A program made the translations under genes and the position numbers. This document shows positions 8,221 to 64,000 of a stretch of 64,000 nt of DNA, piece after piece. Under the pieces are notes generated by a model, which was given only the letters and a program-made list of their open reading frames with translations, searched no databases and was not told the DNA's origin. Position 1 is the first letter of the stretch. Each line of letters begins with the position of its first letter. The DNA is from Chrysoperla carnea (taxonomy: Eukaryota > Arthropoda > Insecta > Neuroptera > Chrysopidae), in NCBI RefSeq assembly GCF_905475395.1, contig NC_058341.1:70067501-70131500 (forward strand), given 5' to 3'.

Positions 8221-9690
8221 TTATCGATTGTGAATTCGTTTATGTTTAACTAAATCACCTTTCTGAGTAAATGTTTTATTACAAATAGTACAAGAAAATG
8301 GTCTTTCTCCGGTGTGAATACGTTTATGGCTATCTAAAGAACTTTGTTGACTAAATGTTTTATTACAAACATCACATGAAAATGGTTTTTCTCCGCTATG
8401 AATTAGTTTATGTCTAACTAAAGTCTGTTGGTGAGTAAATGTTTTATTACAAACATCACATGAAAATGGCTTTTCTCCGGTGTGAATACGTTTATGTGAA
8501 ACTAAATTACTTTTCTCATTAAATCTTTTATTACAAACATCGCATGAAAATGGTTTTTCTCCGCTATGAATTCGTTTATGTGAAACTAAATGTTGTTGTT
8601 GAGTAAATGTTTTATTACAAACATTACATGAAAATGGTTTTTCTCCGCTATGAATTCGTTCATGTTTAACTAAATGTTGTTGTTGAGTAAATGTTTTATT
8701 ACAAATATCACATGAAAATGGTTTTTCTCCGCTATGAGTTAGTTTATGTGTAACTAAATGATGTTGTTGAGTAAATGTTTTATTACAAACATCACATGAA
8801 AATGGTTTTTCTCCGGTGTGAATACGTTTATGTACAACTAAATTATGTTGATAAGTAAATGTTTTATTACAAACATCACATGAAAATGGTTTTTCTCCGG
8901 TGTGAATACGTTTATGTACAACTAAATTATGTTGATAAGTAAATGTTTTATTACAAACATTACATGAAAATGGTTTTTCTCCGCTATGAATTAGTTCATG
9001 TTTAACTAAATGTTGTTGTTGAGTAAATGTTTTATTACAAACATCACATGAAAATGGTTTTTCTCCGCTATGAGTTAGTTTATGTGTAACTAAATGATGT
9101 TGTTGAGTAAATGTTTTATTACAAACATCACATGAAAATGGTTTTTCTCCGGTGTGAATACGTTTATGTACAACTAAATTATGTTGATAAGTAAATGTTT
9201 TATTACAAACATCACATGAAAATGGTTTTTCTCCAGTGTGAATACGTTTATGTACAACTAAATTATGTTGATAAGTAAATGTTTTATTACAAACATTACA
9301 TGAAAATGGTTTTTCTCCGCTATGAATTCGTTCATGTTTAACTAAATGTTGTTGTTGAGTAAATGTTTTATTACAAACATCACATGAAAATGATTTTTCT
9401 TCTAAAACAGTTTCATCTTTAATAATTAGTTCAGTATGTAATTCTTTTTCAATTTTAATATTTTCATAATTAATTGTGTACAATTGTTTATCATTTTCAT
9501 CACTCACAGGTTCATGTTTTACACTCACAACACTATCACTATCATTGCTGCCTGCCTCTTCATTTGTAATGTGTCCACCTTCCATTAAAATAGTTTCATC
9601 TAATATTTCATTTTTAATAATTAGTTCTGTATGTAATTCTTTTTCAACTTTAATATTATCTTTATTAATAAACAAATAATTATTTGCCAT
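8221..9690 (-). CDS. C2H2 zinc-finger protein with 14 fingers
   Basis: A complete 489-residue single-exon frame from ATG at 9690 to the stop at 8221. About the first 100 residues are acidic and lack a recognisable ZAD, KRAB or BTB domain. They contain an internal duplication around VEKELHTELIIK and IEKELHTELIIK. From about residue 101 follow 14 consecutive C-x2-C-x12-H-x3-H fingers joined by canonical GEKP linkers, all with intact ligands. Fingers 1-4 and 5-8 are almost identical, a recent duplication of a four-finger (336-bp) block. Such proteins bind DNA in the nucleus, usually as repressors or activators; the target is unknown. DNA-contact positions vary among fingers (TYQHN, TQQHH, TQQQH, NEKSN, SQQSS, TQKGD). 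A related decayed fragment lies at 40520-40735. Confidence 0.9.
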   Translation of the reverse strand: MANNYLFINKDNIKVEKELHTELIIKNEILDETILMEGGHITNEEAGSNDSDSVVSVKHEPVSDENDKQLYTINYENIKIEKELHTELIIKDETVLEEKSFSCDVCNKTFTQQQHLVKHERIHSGEKPFSCNVCNKTFTYQHNLVVHKRIHTGEKPFSCDVCNKTFTYQHNLVVHKRIHTGEKPFSCDVCNKTFTQQHHLVTHKLTHSGEKPFSCDVCNKTFTQQQHLVKHELIHSGEKPFSCNVCNKTFTYQHNLVVHKRIHTGEKPFSCDVCNKTFTYQHNLVVHKRIHTGEKPFSCDVCNKTFTQQHHLVTHKLTHSGEKPFSCDICNKTFTQQQHLVKHERIHSGEKPFSCNVCNKTFTQQQHLVSHKRIHSGEKPFSCDVCNKRFNEKSNLVSHKRIHTGEKPFSCDVCNKTFTHQQTLVRHKLIHSGEKPFSCDVCNKTFSQQSSLDSHKRIHTGERPFSCTICNKTFTQKGDLVKHKRIHNR

Positions 9691-10014
9691 TTTGTTTAAT
9701 ATTTAATATTATTATCATGAAAACTTATTTATCAAAAGGTTCAAGCATTAATTCACAACTCCAGTAAACATAACCTACAATGACAGCTGAACAGACTATA
9801 AACCATTGACTGATTGACATTTCAGTTATCAGTTATATGAAACGTCAATGGTAAAAACCTATAAACAAGGTTGCCAACTTTCAATTCTCAAGCCCACTAA
9901 ATAGATGATAGAAAACCACTAAAAAGCTACTAGACAGCATTATTATTAGAATACTTTTCTTTTTGTTAAAAGTTTTTTTATTTTTTTATTTTTACAATAA
10001 TTTATCACTAAAAA
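9691..10014. other. Upstream flank of the zinc-finger gene
   Basis: Likely holds the promoter and 5' leader of the minus-strand zinc-finger gene, but I see no clear TATA box or initiator. No repeat identified. Confidence 0.4.
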
Positions 10015-41878: not shown

Positions 41879-44800
41879 CTAAAACAAAATTATTTATTTC
41901 AGTTTTTAACCATTAGAATAAATTATATTAGCGATAAGTCGTCTGTCTCTAGGGCTAAAATGATCCTAAAGAATCGAAAGGAAATCGTCATAGGTTGCAT
42001 CTTGGTTTTCTATAAATTACATATTCTAAAAGATGCAATAAGTGATGAAGTTAGATCATTCAGTCGTATTATCTTTTAAGATCCAGCTTATCGAGAAAAA
42101 TAAGTTCAATTCCAACCTGCAGCCATTTCGATGGTCAAAATTTATTGGTATCAGCATTCATTTCATACAAGGTGGATCATTTTCTGTGGCAACAAAGCCA
42201 AGGCAGTCATTTATCAGATGATTCTTATTTGATTCATAACGTCACGATGTGTAATTAATTATTCAATAAATTTTTCACGCTTATGCCACAAATATACAGG
42301 GTGATTTTTTAAGTTGACGAAGTTGATCGAATCGCAGACTTTCCACTTTTACTTGTCAGATTAATTTGTCGGGATTTATCAATAGTATAAAAATAACTAA
42401 GCATGGTTATACAGTGTGTGACAGATATTTTGACCAAGTTTTGAACTGTTACATCAAAATATTTCGAAAGTAGAACAAATCGAAACACCAAGATATTTCG
42501 AAAGTAGAACTCAAAACGAATAAATTATAAAAAAAAAGTAATTCCGCGATAAGGGTAAAATTTTATTGGCTTTATATATTAAAAATCGGTGTGATAAACT
42601 TTTCTGAGACGATAAGAGTTGCCATACCAAATTTTCCTGAAAATAGATAAAATTTGCAATAAAATGGTCCTTTACAAATTAATTTCCATAAAAGTGAAAA
42701 ATACTTGTAATTATTAAAATATTTATGTCAGGATAAACCCTGGCACATCTAGTCCATTTCGTTTAATAGCATTGATTTATATGCGAACTTTCGAAATTCG
42801 AGTAAGTGCGGCTTTTACCGTCACGGGCTCCCCGCTTATAATAAACAACTGTTTTAAATTTCAAAGATGCAACACTTTTTTCTTGATTACCATGATTTTT
42901 GATTTAATTTTGTTGTGCTAAAGATAGACATATTTACCTTAAATAGGAAGTTTTTCTTATGTGAAGGTCCACATTCAAAACATAATTCATATTGTGGAAC
43001 ACCTAATTTACGTTTACACGCATATTCGCCCAATAATGAAACTGGATGTTTTCCTTCCAATGATTTAATTGGAATAATTTTCTTTTCTTTTTGTGGTGGT
43101 CGTTTACCTTTAATTTCTTCATCAGCCACCAAACCTTTTTTATCTAATTTCACTTCAAGCATTAATGGTTGTAATGCACCATTTTTTTCTTTGCCAAGAC
43201 CTTCACCAGGTCGCCAACCCATTTTTTGTAATAAATGCATTCCCATTCCACCTGACACTGGTGTTGCTGTTACTAATTGATCCTATATTATAGTTATTCA
43301 GTTAATGTTCATAATCGGAATAATTAATTTTATCGATATCAAATACAAATATGAATTATTCAAATCATAGAATAGTACAGTAAAAGATGTAATAAAAATC
43401 GGCTAATTATGGAAACCATGAGTTAGTTGCGTAAGTATTTCTACTCTTTATAATCGAGGATATAAAATAAAAAAAGGAGTTTAAAAAGGATCGACTCCTC
43501 GTCAGTAGATTTTTACGGGAGCCGGTGGAAAATGTGTGTTTGAGAGTACTCAACAAAATCATATACATGCGATCTTATGCTTTTTCAATTTACGCCCATA
43601 CGGTTGGATAGAAGTACTATACTCCCGCACATCTCATTCTTTTTATTTAAAATAAAAAAAAAAAACTATTGTATTATTAGTCGCATCAATGAATGTTTTT
43701 ATCCAGGAGTCCTCAATAACAGCTCCGATTTTGATGATTCTTTTTGTTTATTATTTAAAATCAGAAACATTTTAGAGGCGGGAGACAATCTGGAGACGGA
43801 ATAGGTAATGTCGCGGCTGATATATCAACGCCTACCCTAAATCGCTAATGATAGAAGTTTGAACTTTCGGGAGGATATTGATTGTATATTGTAAGTATTG
43901 TATTTAAGAAAGGATTTTTCGAAATTCATTCTCTAAAATCGAAAGTTTGTATGAAAATATATATATAAACCGTGATTTTTGAGTTCACTACTTATCCGAT
44001 TTTAAAAGTTCTTTCACCTATAGAATGCTATATTATCAGTAAATAAAATGGTCTGTATTTTATTTTCAAAAAATTAACGTTCCGCACCAAAATTAAAAAA
44101 CCATTAAATATTGAAACCGACATTTTTTGGTTCACTACTTAACCCATTTAAAAAATTTTTTAATATATAAAATGCTACATTATCAGCAAGTGACATTGCC
44201 GTATTTTCTTTTCAAAATTATTAGGGATTCACACTTAAAGTTACAATCCATTATATAGTGAACAAAAGGGAAGTTAAGATAATTTAAGGCTAAAACGTGT
44301 ATAACTGCTAGTTATTTATATTGTTTAAACAATATTTGTGCAATTTATATAAAAAGTTCACTCTTGCGTGATTTTTTCCCACAAAAAAATGTATTTTAAC
44401 TTAATAACAATATAAATGGATTTTAACGTTTTTTAAAATAAAATACAACTCATATTAATTGGTGATAATGCAGCATTCTATAGGTGAAAGAATTTTTAAA
44501 ATCGGTTAGGTAAATTAATAAAAATCGGTTTTTTCAAAAAATCCTTTCTTACGTAACACCTACTGTATAAAAAAAAAATTCTATTATTAGCGATTTGGGC
44601 TGAGCGTCGATATATCAGTCGTGACATTGCCTTTTCCCCCTCCAGATTATTTCCCCCCTCTAAAATGATTCTGATTTTAAATAATCAAAAAATCATAAAA
44701 ATCGGAGCTATTATTGAGGATTTCCTAAAAATGGCTATTTTATGTAATCCTTTATCCGATTATATTTATTATGAACAATTCCATTTTTTGATCCCAGATA

Positions 44801-62800: not shown

Positions 62801-63379
62801 GTTTAATTTTACATTACCTCTTGTTGAGCTCTATACATTTCCGCAACAGCTTGGCTGTCATTTGGATTCTCTTGTAATTTACGCATTGCGGTTAATCGCT
62901 GCGATACTATCGATCCAATATCTAGATTCTGAAACGAATTAAATTAAAATAAATTAAAATTTACTTCAATTAAAATAGCAAAATAAACTGACCTCAGCTG
63001 GAGTAGGAAACACAGGTTGTATCATTGCCTGTGCTTGTGAGTACGTTTGATTTGTGATCTTCGGCGGTTGTAGCACCGTTGTACTCTCCACTGGAGGTAC
63101 AATTAATGGAGGTTGTACAACTGGTGGAACTGGTGTTGGTGGAACAAAATTAGTTGGTACTGGTATTTTTTGAACTGATTCCACAACTGGTTTTGGTACT
63201 GGTTTAGGTATTTTTGGCAAAGGAGGAGGCGTTGGTTCAACTTTTTTCGGTTCAACAGGTATCCATTCATTTTCAGTTTTACGATGAAGTTGGCCACTTG
63301 ATACAGGAAATTGCATTAATAAAGTACTTTTATCCATTGCTTTTTCTTGTGGCGTTTTTATTGGGATTACTGTTGAATT
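41765..63379 (-). CDS. SON: SON-like splicing cofactor, 3' part (5 exons; continues beyond the window)
   Basis: Exons 63379-62993, 62928-62818, 59953-59840, 43282-42938 and 41878-41765 join in phase 0 throughout, giving the last 355 residues. SON is a nuclear-speckle protein that supports splicing of weak introns, and its C terminus carries a G-patch and a dsRNA-binding domain. Visible family marks are LLMQFPVSSG, then a proline-rich run, DIGSIVSQRLTAMRKLQENP, MPGQFTGSTGAQILSAAEL, the G-patch GMHLLQKMGWRPGEGLGK, and the dsRBD with GKHPVSLLGEY, NFLFKVKINGVEYQPS and NKKQAKADAA. The 5' part, including any SR-like repeats, is outside. All splice sites are GT-AG. Intron 3 is 16.6 kb and packed with foldback elements, unusual beside the other introns (about 60 bases to 2.9 kb). 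Confidence 0.93.
41879..42937. other. SON intron 4; nothing recognised
   Basis: AT-rich intron of 1059 bases. A duplicated CAAGATATTTCGAAAGTAGAA-like word near 42463 and 42490 is the only pattern seen. Confidence 0.4.
42938..43282 (-). CDS. SON: SON exon: G-patch and first half of the dsRBD
   Basis: 345 bases beginning DQLVTATPVSGGMGMH. The G-patch glycines are intact (GMG, GW, GEGLGK). It ends NFLFK before GTAAAT. An opposite-strand frame of 121 residues is a shadow. Confidence 0.93.
43483..45500. mobile_element. Foldback family G, copy 2, with nested family D
   Basis: The left arm (43483-43640) has GGATCGACTCCTC and CAATTTACGCCCATACG; the right arm (45390-45500) ends AGGAGTCGATTCCTGG with its partners. 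The loop contains family D (43672-44722) and about three ~190-base tandem units (44800-45400) with AATCTTTATTTTCGTCAATA and TTATATATCGAAAACG. Confidence 0.65.
43672..44722. mobile_element. Family D foldback, copy 2, nested in family G
   Basis: AGTCGCATCAATGAATG, AACAGCTCCGATTTTGAT and the inverted ATCAGTCGTGACATTGCC and AATCGGAGCTATTATTGA define the ends. The loop is longer than in the 33161 copy and holds repeated ATTATATAGTGAAC-like words. Confidence 0.75.
45524..45797. mobile_element. MITE, ~274 bp, ~90-base inverted ends
   Basis: TTAATAAACAATAAATTG and CAATTTATTGTTTATTAA close the element; GAAACAGTCCACGTAAAA pairs with TTTTACATGGACCGTTTC, and GGCAACTTGTATTA with its partner. Confidence 0.85.
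45798..48064. other. No gene recognised (SON intron 3)
   Basis: 2.3 kb without a clear inverted repeat. A T-run of about 20 lies at 46436-46456. A family E flank (AACAATTGACTGAGTTAATT) occurs near 47990. Short frames are AT-driven. Confidence 0.4.
48065..48300. mobile_element. Half copy of the 25492-26008 foldback
   Basis: Starts TACAGGATGTCCCGTAAG, then CGCACGCTTTTGTTGCATC and CTAAGACGAAAGGTC, ending in ATGATTTTTGATAGATTAAA. Only the left half is present. Confidence 0.7.
48301..49711. other. Unassigned region with a possible decayed ORF
   Basis: Base composition is less AT-rich at 48740-49240, where frames are open on both strands (minus 49235-48810, 141 residues; plus 48744-48935, 63 residues). 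I recognise no domain in either. It could be a decayed transposon gene. GAGTACATAAACACTTATAA near 49284 is duplicated in tandem. Confidence 0.3.
49712..49756. repeat. Short perfect hairpin
   Basis: Nearly perfect 20-base stem (AGAGTAGACAAGTTG with CAACTTGTTTACTCT) and a 4-base ACAC loop. Confidence 0.6.
50061..50762. mobile_element. Family H foldback, ~700 bp
   Basis: Arms of ~330 bases: TTAATCCAATTAAT with its partner at 50744-50760, AAAATACGTTGTTAAAG, AAGCAAGCCAAGAA and AATCAATGGCTAAGTTAAC on the left against their complements on the right. A partial copy is at 40016-40300. Confidence 0.8.
50763..52509. other. No gene; family F fragment at ~51430-51700
   Basis: GGGGTTTTAATCAGTTTTTTA-like words and CCGTTAGAGATATAAC belong to family F. 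The rest of this intronic stretch shows nothing I recognise. Confidence 0.4.
52510..53068. mobile_element. Foldback element, ~560 bp, with a second inner foldback
   Basis: Ends TTAGGGAGCTGACCATATG and CATATGGCCAGCTCTCTAA; arms of ~70 bases continue to AAATATGATAGT. Inside, GTTTGCTTGTTTGATAATT and AATTATCAAACAAGCAGAC form another pair enclosing repeated CCACTTG and CAAACTTTGCA words. Confidence 0.8.
53140..53629. mobile_element. Inverted-repeat element with internal copies of its own end
   Basis: Perfect ends GTGAAAATAGCACTCCC and its complement. The word CCCAAATGCGAATTTT-like recurs four times at ~120-130 base spacing (near 53153, 53268, 53402 and inverted near 53470 and 53600), separated by segments with GTCCAC and GTTCACC words. 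Confidence 0.75.
54010..54947. mobile_element. Foldback element, ~940 bp
   Basis: Ends AAAAAAAGGAAGGTTTCGGC and GCCGAAACCTTCCTTTTT; inner pairs include AAAATTTTTGT-type and CGATTGCGAATATGA-type words either side of 54560. A TTTG microsatellite abuts the right end (54946-54970). Confidence 0.65.
55185..55265. repeat. Single arm of the 38772-39205 foldback
   Basis: GAACGGCGTTGTTTAGTAAA and AACGGCTAATTAAGCTAG match that element in inverted orientation. Confidence 0.55.
55500..55665. mobile_element. Non-LTR retrotransposon fragment (tentative)
   Basis: ATATTGGACAAAGGCCTCCTC, followed by ACCATTCTTGCCTGTTGAAC and GGGGGACCTCTTGATCTTG, resembles a block I recall from RTE-like insect LINEs. About 165 bases, with no coding frame. 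Confidence 0.4.
55985..56470 (+). mobile_element. 3' part of an RTE-like LINE, copy 2
   Basis: Begins TAGCTGTGAACTACCCGC and ends with AAATCCGTTGCGTAGTTTC, GATTTAAGCGTACATAGGG, AAGCGACTTTGTTTTATA and the tail ATAGTGATGATAGTGATGAT. RTE elements often end in short tandem repeats. The last ~100 bases match 28060-28195. Confidence 0.55.
56836..58081. mobile_element. Very long foldback, ~1.25 kb with ~600-base arms
   Basis: TATATAGTTGGGTAAATC pairs with GATTTATCCAACTATA; further pairs are AATTTATTATCAAA-type, CACCTTGCTTGCTATCGAA, AACATAGCAAAATGACCTC, ATAACTTTTCGAAAATGA and AGCCCGATGCATAACCTC with GAGGTTATGTACCGGGC. The arms diverge by roughly a tenth by eye. A foreign-looking ~90-base block at 57927-58010 interrupts the right arm. 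Confidence 0.8.
58385..59345. mobile_element. Family F foldback, longest copy
   Basis: Outer parts GGAAAAATTAATGCATC and CCTGGAGAGGTCGACTTT match the ends of 31970-32691. Several CCTTATAAAAAAATAAAC and TTTCTAGAAAAAC-type inverted words lie within, so the copy carries internal duplications. Confidence 0.65.
59517..59630. repeat. Two adjacent hairpins
   Basis: First: AAGAACAAATTTG..GTTAACA against TGTTAAC..ATATGTTCTT (59517-59563). Second: AAATCAAAATCCAGTGA against TCACTAAATTTTGATTT (59572-59630). Both lie close to the SON exon at 59840. Confidence 0.6.
59840..59953 (-). CDS. SON: SON exon with the MPGQFTGSTG motif
   Basis: 38 codons from MQNWATSKQM to YQAWARK, then GTAATT. It precedes the 16.6 kb intron, and phase is 0 on both sides. 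Confidence 0.92.
60227..60772. mobile_element. MITE in SON intron 2, ~545 bp
   Basis: TGCGATATGATGAATGAGAG at the left and CTCATTCATCATATCGCA at the right; the pairing continues through GACTGTTAGTG for about 45 bases. AT-rich interior. Confidence 0.7.
60773..61185. other. Nothing recognised (SON intron 2)
   Basis: AT-rich intronic sequence without clear structure. Confidence 0.35.
61186..62210. mobile_element. Two DINE-1-like repeats (family E) head-out, as a large inverted pair
   Basis: A plus-strand copy (61186-61500; CGGCTGTCCGTTCGTCCGTC core) faces a minus-strand copy (about 61640-62010; core decayed). They are joined by flank sequence with AATTGACTGAGTTAATTG and its complement at 62163-62185. 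The pair forms a ~1 kb imperfect palindrome. An extra tail fragment follows at 62010-62095. Confidence 0.65.
62211..62817. other. Nothing recognised (SON intron 2)
   Basis: AT-rich intronic sequence; ends at the donor of the 62818-62928 exon. Confidence 0.35.
62818..62928 (-). CDS. SON: SON exon with the DIGSIVSQRL motif
   Basis: 37 codons from NLDIGSIVSQ to MYRAQQE, between the acceptor GTTTCAG and donor GTAATG. Its intron with the upstream exon is only 64 bases. Confidence 0.92.
62993..63379 (-). CDS. SON: SON exon with the LLMQFPVSSG motif and proline-rich segment
   Basis: 129 codons between the acceptor TTCTTTTAG and donor GTCAGT. A run of PVPKP, PPTPVPP and VPPVE-type proline motifs follows the conserved LLMQFPVSSG. 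The first exon-internal ATG (63337) is not a start, as the frame is open to the acceptor. Confidence 0.9.
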
Positions 63380-63527
63380 CTAAAAGAAAAATTTGTTTGT
63401 GTTTTAGACATTTATAATGTTGGTTACAATGATAGACCGGCAAATACTATCAGAAATTTTGTTCAGTCAAAGTATATGTTAGTCTAAGATCCCACTTCAA
63501 AATCAGTACATTCATAACGTGGATAAT

Positions 63528-64000
63528 CTATATATATATAAAAAGAGAGTGTTTGTTTGTATGTCCCCGATTTTCCCTAAAACTAACCATTGATCTTCGG
63601 TAGGGGATTATGTCATTGGGTAGCCCTTAGGCTCCCATTGTGAATAAGGGAGTTTGGTGGGGGTGGAATTAAAAATGATCTAGGAATTCATAGAAAATAG
63701 ATTAAAAAATAGTTCTAATAATTTTCAATAGATGGCGCCACTGTCAATAGTACAATTTTCACTAGATGGCGCTACTGGCGCAAATGTCTTTCGATTTTTC
63801 TCGAAAATTCTGGAATGTTCCATGGATTTCTATCGAATTTTCTAGAATTTTCTCGAACATTCTGGAATGTTCTATGAATTTCTATCGAATTTTCTAGAAC
63901 TTTCTCGAATATTCTCGAATGTTGTATGGATTTTTATTGAATTTTATCAAACTTTCTCGAACAATCTGGAATGTTCCATGGGTTTCTGTCGAATTTTCTA
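63528..64000. mobile_element. Helitron-like repeat, runs off the window
   Basis: Begins near TCTATATATATATAAAAAG followed by GTGTTTGTTTGTATG and CCCCGATTTTCCC, a start style I associate with insect Helitrons. TAGATGGCGCCACTG and TAGATGGCGCTACTG are repeated at 63730 and 63762. The 52-bp tandem array then starts. The 3' end is outside, so the class is tentative. Confidence 0.45.
63791..64000. repeat. 52-bp tandem repeat with perfect heat-shock-element arrays
   Basis: Four units at exactly 52-base spacing (the GAATGTT block starts near 63813, 63865, 63917 and 63969), cut by the window end. Each unit has alternating TTC and GAA with two-base gaps, the HSF-binding pattern. In unit 2 seven contiguous units are perfect (63840-63872), in unit 1 five, in unit 3 six, and unit 4 has one mismatch. 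Two-base gaps and pentamer phase are kept while other positions vary. Confidence 0.8.

Follow-up and report, generated by a model that had tools for sequence, protein, structure and literature searches.

Canonical Helitrons are rolling-circle transposons that begin with TC, end with CTRR and insert between A and T, and the heat-shock element (HSE) is usually written as NGAANNTTCNNGAAN. In Caenorhabditis elegans, Helitrons hold most HSEs (61.4%), in clusters of tandem overlapping HSEs that are bound by HSF-1 (Garrigues et al. 2019, PMC6927752). According to earlier work cited in the available text of that paper, the full-length Helitron1_CE carries HSEs and produces a heat-induced, HSF-1-dependent Rep-helicase mRNA. 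In the survey in the same text, the other UCSC animals for which Helitrons are annotated showed no HSE enrichment, and a restriction to Caenorhabditis was suggested (PMC6927752). The pattern printed for this cross-species survey is NGAANNTCCNNGGAN (PMC6927752, section 9). If it is printed correctly, the negative result may be weaker than stated, because it differs from the usual pattern given above.

Here, we describe a Helitron family of the lacewing Chrysoperla carnea, one copy of which lies in a 64-kb stretch of chromosome 5 (C5:70067501-70131500; 29.8% GC), hereafter the window; the genome searched comprises 559 Mb in 337 contigs, with C6 denoting the X chromosome. As described for Helitron1_CE, HelitronY1_CE and HelitronY4_CE of Caenorhabditis in the text cited above (PMC6927752), HSEs are concentrated in Helitrons genome-wide (in the lacewing, 4,261 of 4,484 5-unit HSEs match patterns of the family). 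The lacewing case differs in belonging to an insect and in the 52-bp minisatellite and perfect arrays of up to eight units that its short copies carry. A literature search, outside which most subscription papers lay, found no paper combining Chrysoperla and Helitron.

Helitron termini, copies and insertion site

The repeat is located at the right edge of the window and is a short non-autonomous canonical Helitron. The original prediction had placed its start at 63791; instead, the element begins A|TCTATATATATATAAAAAGAGAG at 63527 and ends approximately 166 bp past the window. On the basis of the A|TC boundary and copy alignment, its 5' part occupies 63527..64000 of the forward strand, and the element continues to C5:70131666 (window position 64166). 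The 5' terminus, TCTATATATATATAAAAAGAGAGTGTTTGTTTGTATGT (63527..63564, forward strand), was set by boundary reading and by genomic matches to an overlapping 25-mer, which was found 297 times with at most two mismatches, compared with 0 times for the reversed control.

Of 314 candidates, 40 were scored, and 40 copies were fetched, namely the window copy and 39 more that matched a probe including the HSE array over nearly its full length. Both ends were recognised by regular expression in 35 of them, with lengths of 619–1159 bp (median, 822 bp). All 35 complete copies ended in CTAG followed by T (24-base 3'-end match with at most three errors), and 32 started with TC, 31 of which were preceded by A; the remaining parses comprised two copies with altered ends (L033 and L038) and one parsed one base off (L052). 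These termini support the Helitron-like identity that had been predicted for the repeat. Four of the 40 fetched loci, including the window copy, had no 24-base 3'-end match, and L050 had no 5' match; for one of the four (L045), a decayed 3' tail was found further on, in L087. The 3' end expected beyond the window was therefore recovered as CTAG in all complete copies of the family but not in the window copy, whose 3' hairpin and CTAG were not found in the 6 kb fetched and which departs from the other copies at 64166. Because these terminal features are missing from the fetched DNA, the window copy is probably a dead fragment.

The family shares both termini, the A|T target and the presence of a Rep/helicase relative with canonical Helitrons, and differs in that its predicted 3' hairpin is weak alone: AACCC-A-GC-GAA-GC-GGGTT pairs with a bulge (−4.4 kcal/mol; DNA fold z of −0.8, with 40 of 200 shuffles as good). 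Scans of viral, phage, plasmid and prokaryote-genome sequences retrieved no relative of the element. Outside the minisatellite, changes confined to few copies affected 74/10246 sites, a rate of about 0.7% that suggests a young family. Two copies located 11.8 Mb apart on the X chromosome, L055 (C6:917800-920100) and L054 (C6:12678200-12680500), have the same short flanks, at least 12 bp on each side; because both flanks are identical, the pair probably arose when host DNA was duplicated, and not by two insertions.

The minus-strand gene next to the repeat is SON, of which further exon pieces were recognised by features typical of the gene. Its identity was taken from an open frame at 42890..43282 (minus strand) with a G-patch and a double-stranded-RNA-binding domain (Pfam G-patch, 9e-15; DND1_DSRM, 3.2e-7). 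A coding exon at 62993..63379 (minus strand; splice sites judged by eye) is separated from the element by 147 bases, and on the far side the gene has an RS-rich open frame that spans all of the examined L025:1991-2638. The element is thus flanked by two coding pieces of SON and oriented opposite to the gene, in agreement with the predicted intronic position. Elsewhere in the window, a zinc-finger ORF of 493 aa (8221-9702) contains 84-bp finger units arranged in a 336-bp higher-order repeat (93% matches).

Heat-shock element arrays in the window and across the genome

Tandem Repeats Finder reported a 52-bp unit present in 3.9 copies at 63797..64000 (forward strand, 84% matches), extending past the window edge, as expected from the roughly four copies of a 52-bp unit noted previously. 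Scanning for alternating TTC/GAA on the forward strand yielded arrays of five (63798..63820), eight (63835..63872) and seven (63887..63919) contiguous pentamers, each of which is a predicted HSE by the criterion of at least three contiguous alternating nGAAn pentamers. The second of these had been described as a perfect seven-unit array at 63840-63872; the array itself stands, with corrected size and limits. The previous count of four to seven pentamers per copy likewise holds for the presence of arrays and not for their evenness, as the third 52-bp unit is degenerate and only part of the fourth falls within the window. The consensus unit contains a break in the run: one pentamer has been lost (ATGGA) and the TTC-GAA spacing after it is extended by two bases, hence a length of 52 bp instead of 50 bp. 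Traced beyond the window edge, the window copy holds 42 pentamers in arrays of at least three units.

Shuffled sequences gave far shorter arrays. All 126 arrays of at least three units in 100 dinucleotide shuffles of the window had exactly three, and the longest array in 5000 shuffles of 63791-64000 had four. When the 52-mer was shuffled by mononucleotide 400,000 times and placed three times in tandem, more than three units never appeared, versus eight observed.

The strongest rival to a functional reading is that the arrays are an accident of sequence, in which a 10-bp palindromic repeat became a minisatellite in one Helitron and was copied 300 times; HSF may bind such arrays, which would never have served the element. 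A 10-bp period does run across 63791-63961, and 308 of 100,000 random 10-mers of like composition (0.3%) give at least eight pentamers in tandem. A similar array also occurs in the GC-rich DNA of an unrelated IMG/VR contig (L006:4004-4051), as an HSE-like 10-bp repeat with 84% matches. This contig came to light when viral-type relatives were considered and rejected: the 6-unit HSE pattern occurred in 15 contigs, which were compared with the element by BLAST, and the best of them, L006, was unrelated in context. A 20-base pattern matched one contig (L016). The L006 array is a caution against motif-only claims, as 10-bp repeats can make arrays in unrelated DNA.

Genome-wide, the perfect 5-unit HSE pattern occurred 4,484 times (2,245 + 2,239), versus 0 + 3 for the reversed pattern. 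Two degenerate patterns derived from the family covered 4,261 of these (2,150 + 2,111; 95%), with controls at 0. Among the first 100 listed 5-unit matches, 99 fell in eight clusters and one was an isolated site (L067); seven of the clusters were newly fetched and all aligned to the element, and the eighth was a copy fetched earlier (L044). The 3-unit pattern was less skewed (21,314 versus 5,341 reversed). In the 35 complete copies, the median number of pentamers lying in arrays of at least three units was 42 (range, 31–82), and all of these copies, which had been chosen with an array-containing probe, held 3–11 arrays of at least five units. Outside the family, two 4-unit arrays were found in 175,712 bp, together with one 5-unit array whose own match was the reason for its retrieval.

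By these pattern matches, the Helitron family accounts for nearly all perfect 5-unit HSEs of the genome, and the proposal that an insect family has carried HSEs through the genome appears to hold in that the arrays have spread. Because all copies descend from one array, the counts show spread and not repeated selection; under the accident reading as well, the genome-wide excess counts only once.

Conservation of the HSE cores

The TTC/GAA cores had been proposed as positions that might be kept better than the rest of the repeat, which was not the case among the dispersed copies. The count left out L050, which had no 5' match. After columns with at least four differing rows were dropped, changes were found at 15/1911 core, 6/936 spacer, 24/2629 other minisatellite and 74/10246 remaining positions. 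The copies show no sign of selection on HSE cores, in a comparison that has low power because they are so alike, and post-insertion cores without excess conservation are what the accident reading would predict. With no columns dropped, the counts were 92/2340 for cores, 79/1326 for spacers and 86/10310 for the rest outside the minisatellite, so that cores vary more than the rest. An apparent signal of core selection in this all-column count (core versus spacer, p=0.007; non-CpG, p=0.06) was rejected, as it vanished once the columns with at least four differing rows were dropped. It came mostly from columns with joint differences in about 7 of 39 rows, a pattern that we read as a unit deletion that probably shifted the alignment.

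Within the 52-mer, core columns of the five sub-repeats were less variable than spacer columns (3/30 versus 8/20, p=0.017) in a post hoc comparison for which one 12-base sub-repeat was hand-trimmed to 10 bases, with p=0.017 for one way of trimming and 0.007 for the other. Of 210 column choices, 1.9% matched or beat the contrast of 3/30 versus 8/20. Among the four units in the window, the difference (core, 5/105; spacer, 11/99) was not significant (p=0.12), and rotating the core mask gave an equally good result in 5 of 52 positions.

Gene-bearing relatives and the position of the arrays

Rep (PF14214) had 64 matches in the genome. Half of them (32/64), many broken, are located at approximately 6.5–12.8 Mb of the X chromosome. 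A locus on this chromosome (C6:~9726989-9733290) combines the ends of the short family with Rep (PF14214, 5.4e-47) and Pif1 2B (1.9e-18) in broken frames; PF05970 was detected only below the cut-off. Its order is family 5' end, HSE minisatellite, inverse HSE arrays, 4-unit HSE, TATATAAG, leader, ATG, Rep/helicase and 3' tail. The forward and inverted arrays, together with the family 5' end, occupy L045:590-1824; the TATATAAG TATA box is at L045:1886, 61 bp after the 4-unit HSE; the ATG is at L045:2323; and the family 3' tail, with a decayed hairpin, is at L087:4129-4191. A splice-donor-like site was seen by eye in the leader. A search with the Rep region of this locus returned no second copy; the next matches, at 14 places, had 71% identity across most of the query. 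The X locus is the single gene-bearing copy of the short family that was found, and it is broken.

The 71%-identical places represent a second lineage, in which the open frame is exactly 1462 codons long for seven Rep matches and 1372–1528 codons long for three more. Near-identical versions of its 5' region were found at 17 places, some of them without a Rep match, and nine are 100% identical over all 482 bases. The copy that was read starts as A|TC at C5:68390219 and ends as CTAG|T at 68395535, with a 4-unit HSE at 68390553, TATATAAG at 68390590, 19 bp after the HSE, and the ATG at 68391030. Five diverged relatives (L111-L115) keep the HSE core, the TATA box and the leader, and have three contiguous units. 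The open-frame lineage (L085) lacks 12 bp found in these five relatives; without this segment, a further GAA falls into phase, so that the HSE has four units instead of three. As one event, this is only a lead. In total, an HSE was found in two of the four Rep lineages looked at. The other two (C3:1677173 and C6:10657585) had no 4-unit HSE (at most one mismatch) in the upstream DNA fetched, their 5' ends not being located, so the putative heat-shock promoter is not universal. Separately, seven Rep matches at C3:3767553-3809834, five in 720-codon open frames and one in a frame of 721 codons, lie mostly about 5.8 kb apart; this region looks like a tandem array of whole Helitrons.

In the window, two AGATGGCGC motifs (63730..63772, at 63730 and 63764, forward strand) are the only ones on either strand, and we take them to resemble a CTCF-type site. 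Two such motifs in opposite orientations lie 5' of the HSE in both Helitron families, those of the open-frame lineage being at L085:1824 and 1896 (element positions 205 and 277).

The same layout of HSE-type units followed at short distance by TATATAAG is seen in the hsp70 and small-hsp promoters of this genome. TATATAAG is common to all six hsp70 promoters and in one of them (L105) lies 15 bp after a 2-unit stretch. The host promoters differ from the Helitrons in having at most three contiguous perfect pentamers in the upstream stretches fetched (6 hsp70 and 15 small-hsp loci), versus eight in the Helitron arrays. A 3-unit array lies upstream in 5 of the 14 small-hsp loci with a located ATG, the fifteenth locus (L104) having no located ATG. 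Capture of a promoter from hsp genes was considered and rejected for now, as alignments with the 15 small-hsp loci and six hsp70 promoters were limited to short stretches.

The placement of the HSEs argues against an accident of sequence. In both gene-bearing lineages with HSEs, these precede a TATA box that itself lies ahead of Rep, at distances of 61 and 19 bp from the box. Arrays of at least four units are rare elsewhere, so that the leader of the open-frame lineage, 811 bp long, would be expected to hold about 0.009 of them. On balance, we regard the accident as unlikely, while granting it appreciable weight.

Compared by eye with the X locus (L045), the short reference copy keeps the arrays, whereas the TATATAAG box and the gene are absent. 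The short family resembles a product of internal deletion in which the TATA box and the gene were removed and the 5' end, the forward HSE block and the 3' tail were retained. That arrays persist in copies without the box and gene, and are present in every complete copy (as sampled with the array-containing probe), would also fit a role in a DNA step, in which HSF keeps the 5' end nucleosome-free or aids nicking by Rep, hence the retention in short copies. Such retention could, however, simply reflect where the internal deletion fell, and we consider a role of this kind very improbable.

Discussion

As read from its sequence, the lacewing family is an insect case of HSE-carrying Helitrons, beyond Caenorhabditis, in which the order HSE, TATA box and Rep is visible. 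The last alternative, that the element is a Helentron or HINE (DINE-1-like) or a plain minisatellite and not a Helitron, can be all but dismissed: DINE-1/HINE elements are likewise short non-coding rolling-circle elements, often with internal (central) tandem repeats, but in the available text they are described with subterminal inverted repeats and T-rich targets (PMC4067079), whereas the lacewing family has an A|T target, with CTAG|T ends in 35 of 35 complete copies and A before 31 of 32 TC starts.

The reading we favour, and hold to be fairly probable as a whole, is that the HSE block began as a heat-shock promoter of the Rep/helicase of a gene-bearing Helitron and that a cut-down derivative spread the HSEs. 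Heat-shock switching of Rep/helicase is suggested because the layout of HSE, TATA box, leader and Rep is common to two lineages. Under heat or proteotoxic stress, HSF trimers would bind the HSEs, and Rep/helicase would be switched on. Rep would then act on any element whose ends match, inserting copies of it between A and T. By tandem duplication, the HSE block would have grown into the 52-bp minisatellite, with arrays of up to eight units, and the approximately 300 short copies would have taken it round the genome. Their mobilisation would depend on Rep supplied in trans, for which the 71%-identical open-frame lineage is the candidate source, because the single family-specific Rep found is broken. 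HSF binding, heat induction and selection on the HSEs in the gene-bearing lineage, as well as any effect on SON, are what we infer from this arrangement.

A broader proposal is more tentative, possible rather than probable in our estimate. Gene-bearing Helitrons may repeatedly gain heat-shock promoters, in two lineages here and independently in nematodes, which would make heat-inducible transposition recurrent. In the lacewing, the block would have escalated to 8-unit arrays, and the 300 copies that supply nearly all dense HSEs could be altering which genes respond to heat or acting as a sink for HSF.

This lacewing can be reared in the laboratory. Because the genome offers about 300 very similar copies, 17 near-identical 5' regions with an HSE and a TATA box, and a family that appears to hold approximately 95% of all 5-unit HSEs, the lacewing lets one ask whether heat-shock promoters are a recurrent trait of Helitrons and whether the dispersed copies may be recruiting genes to the heat response.
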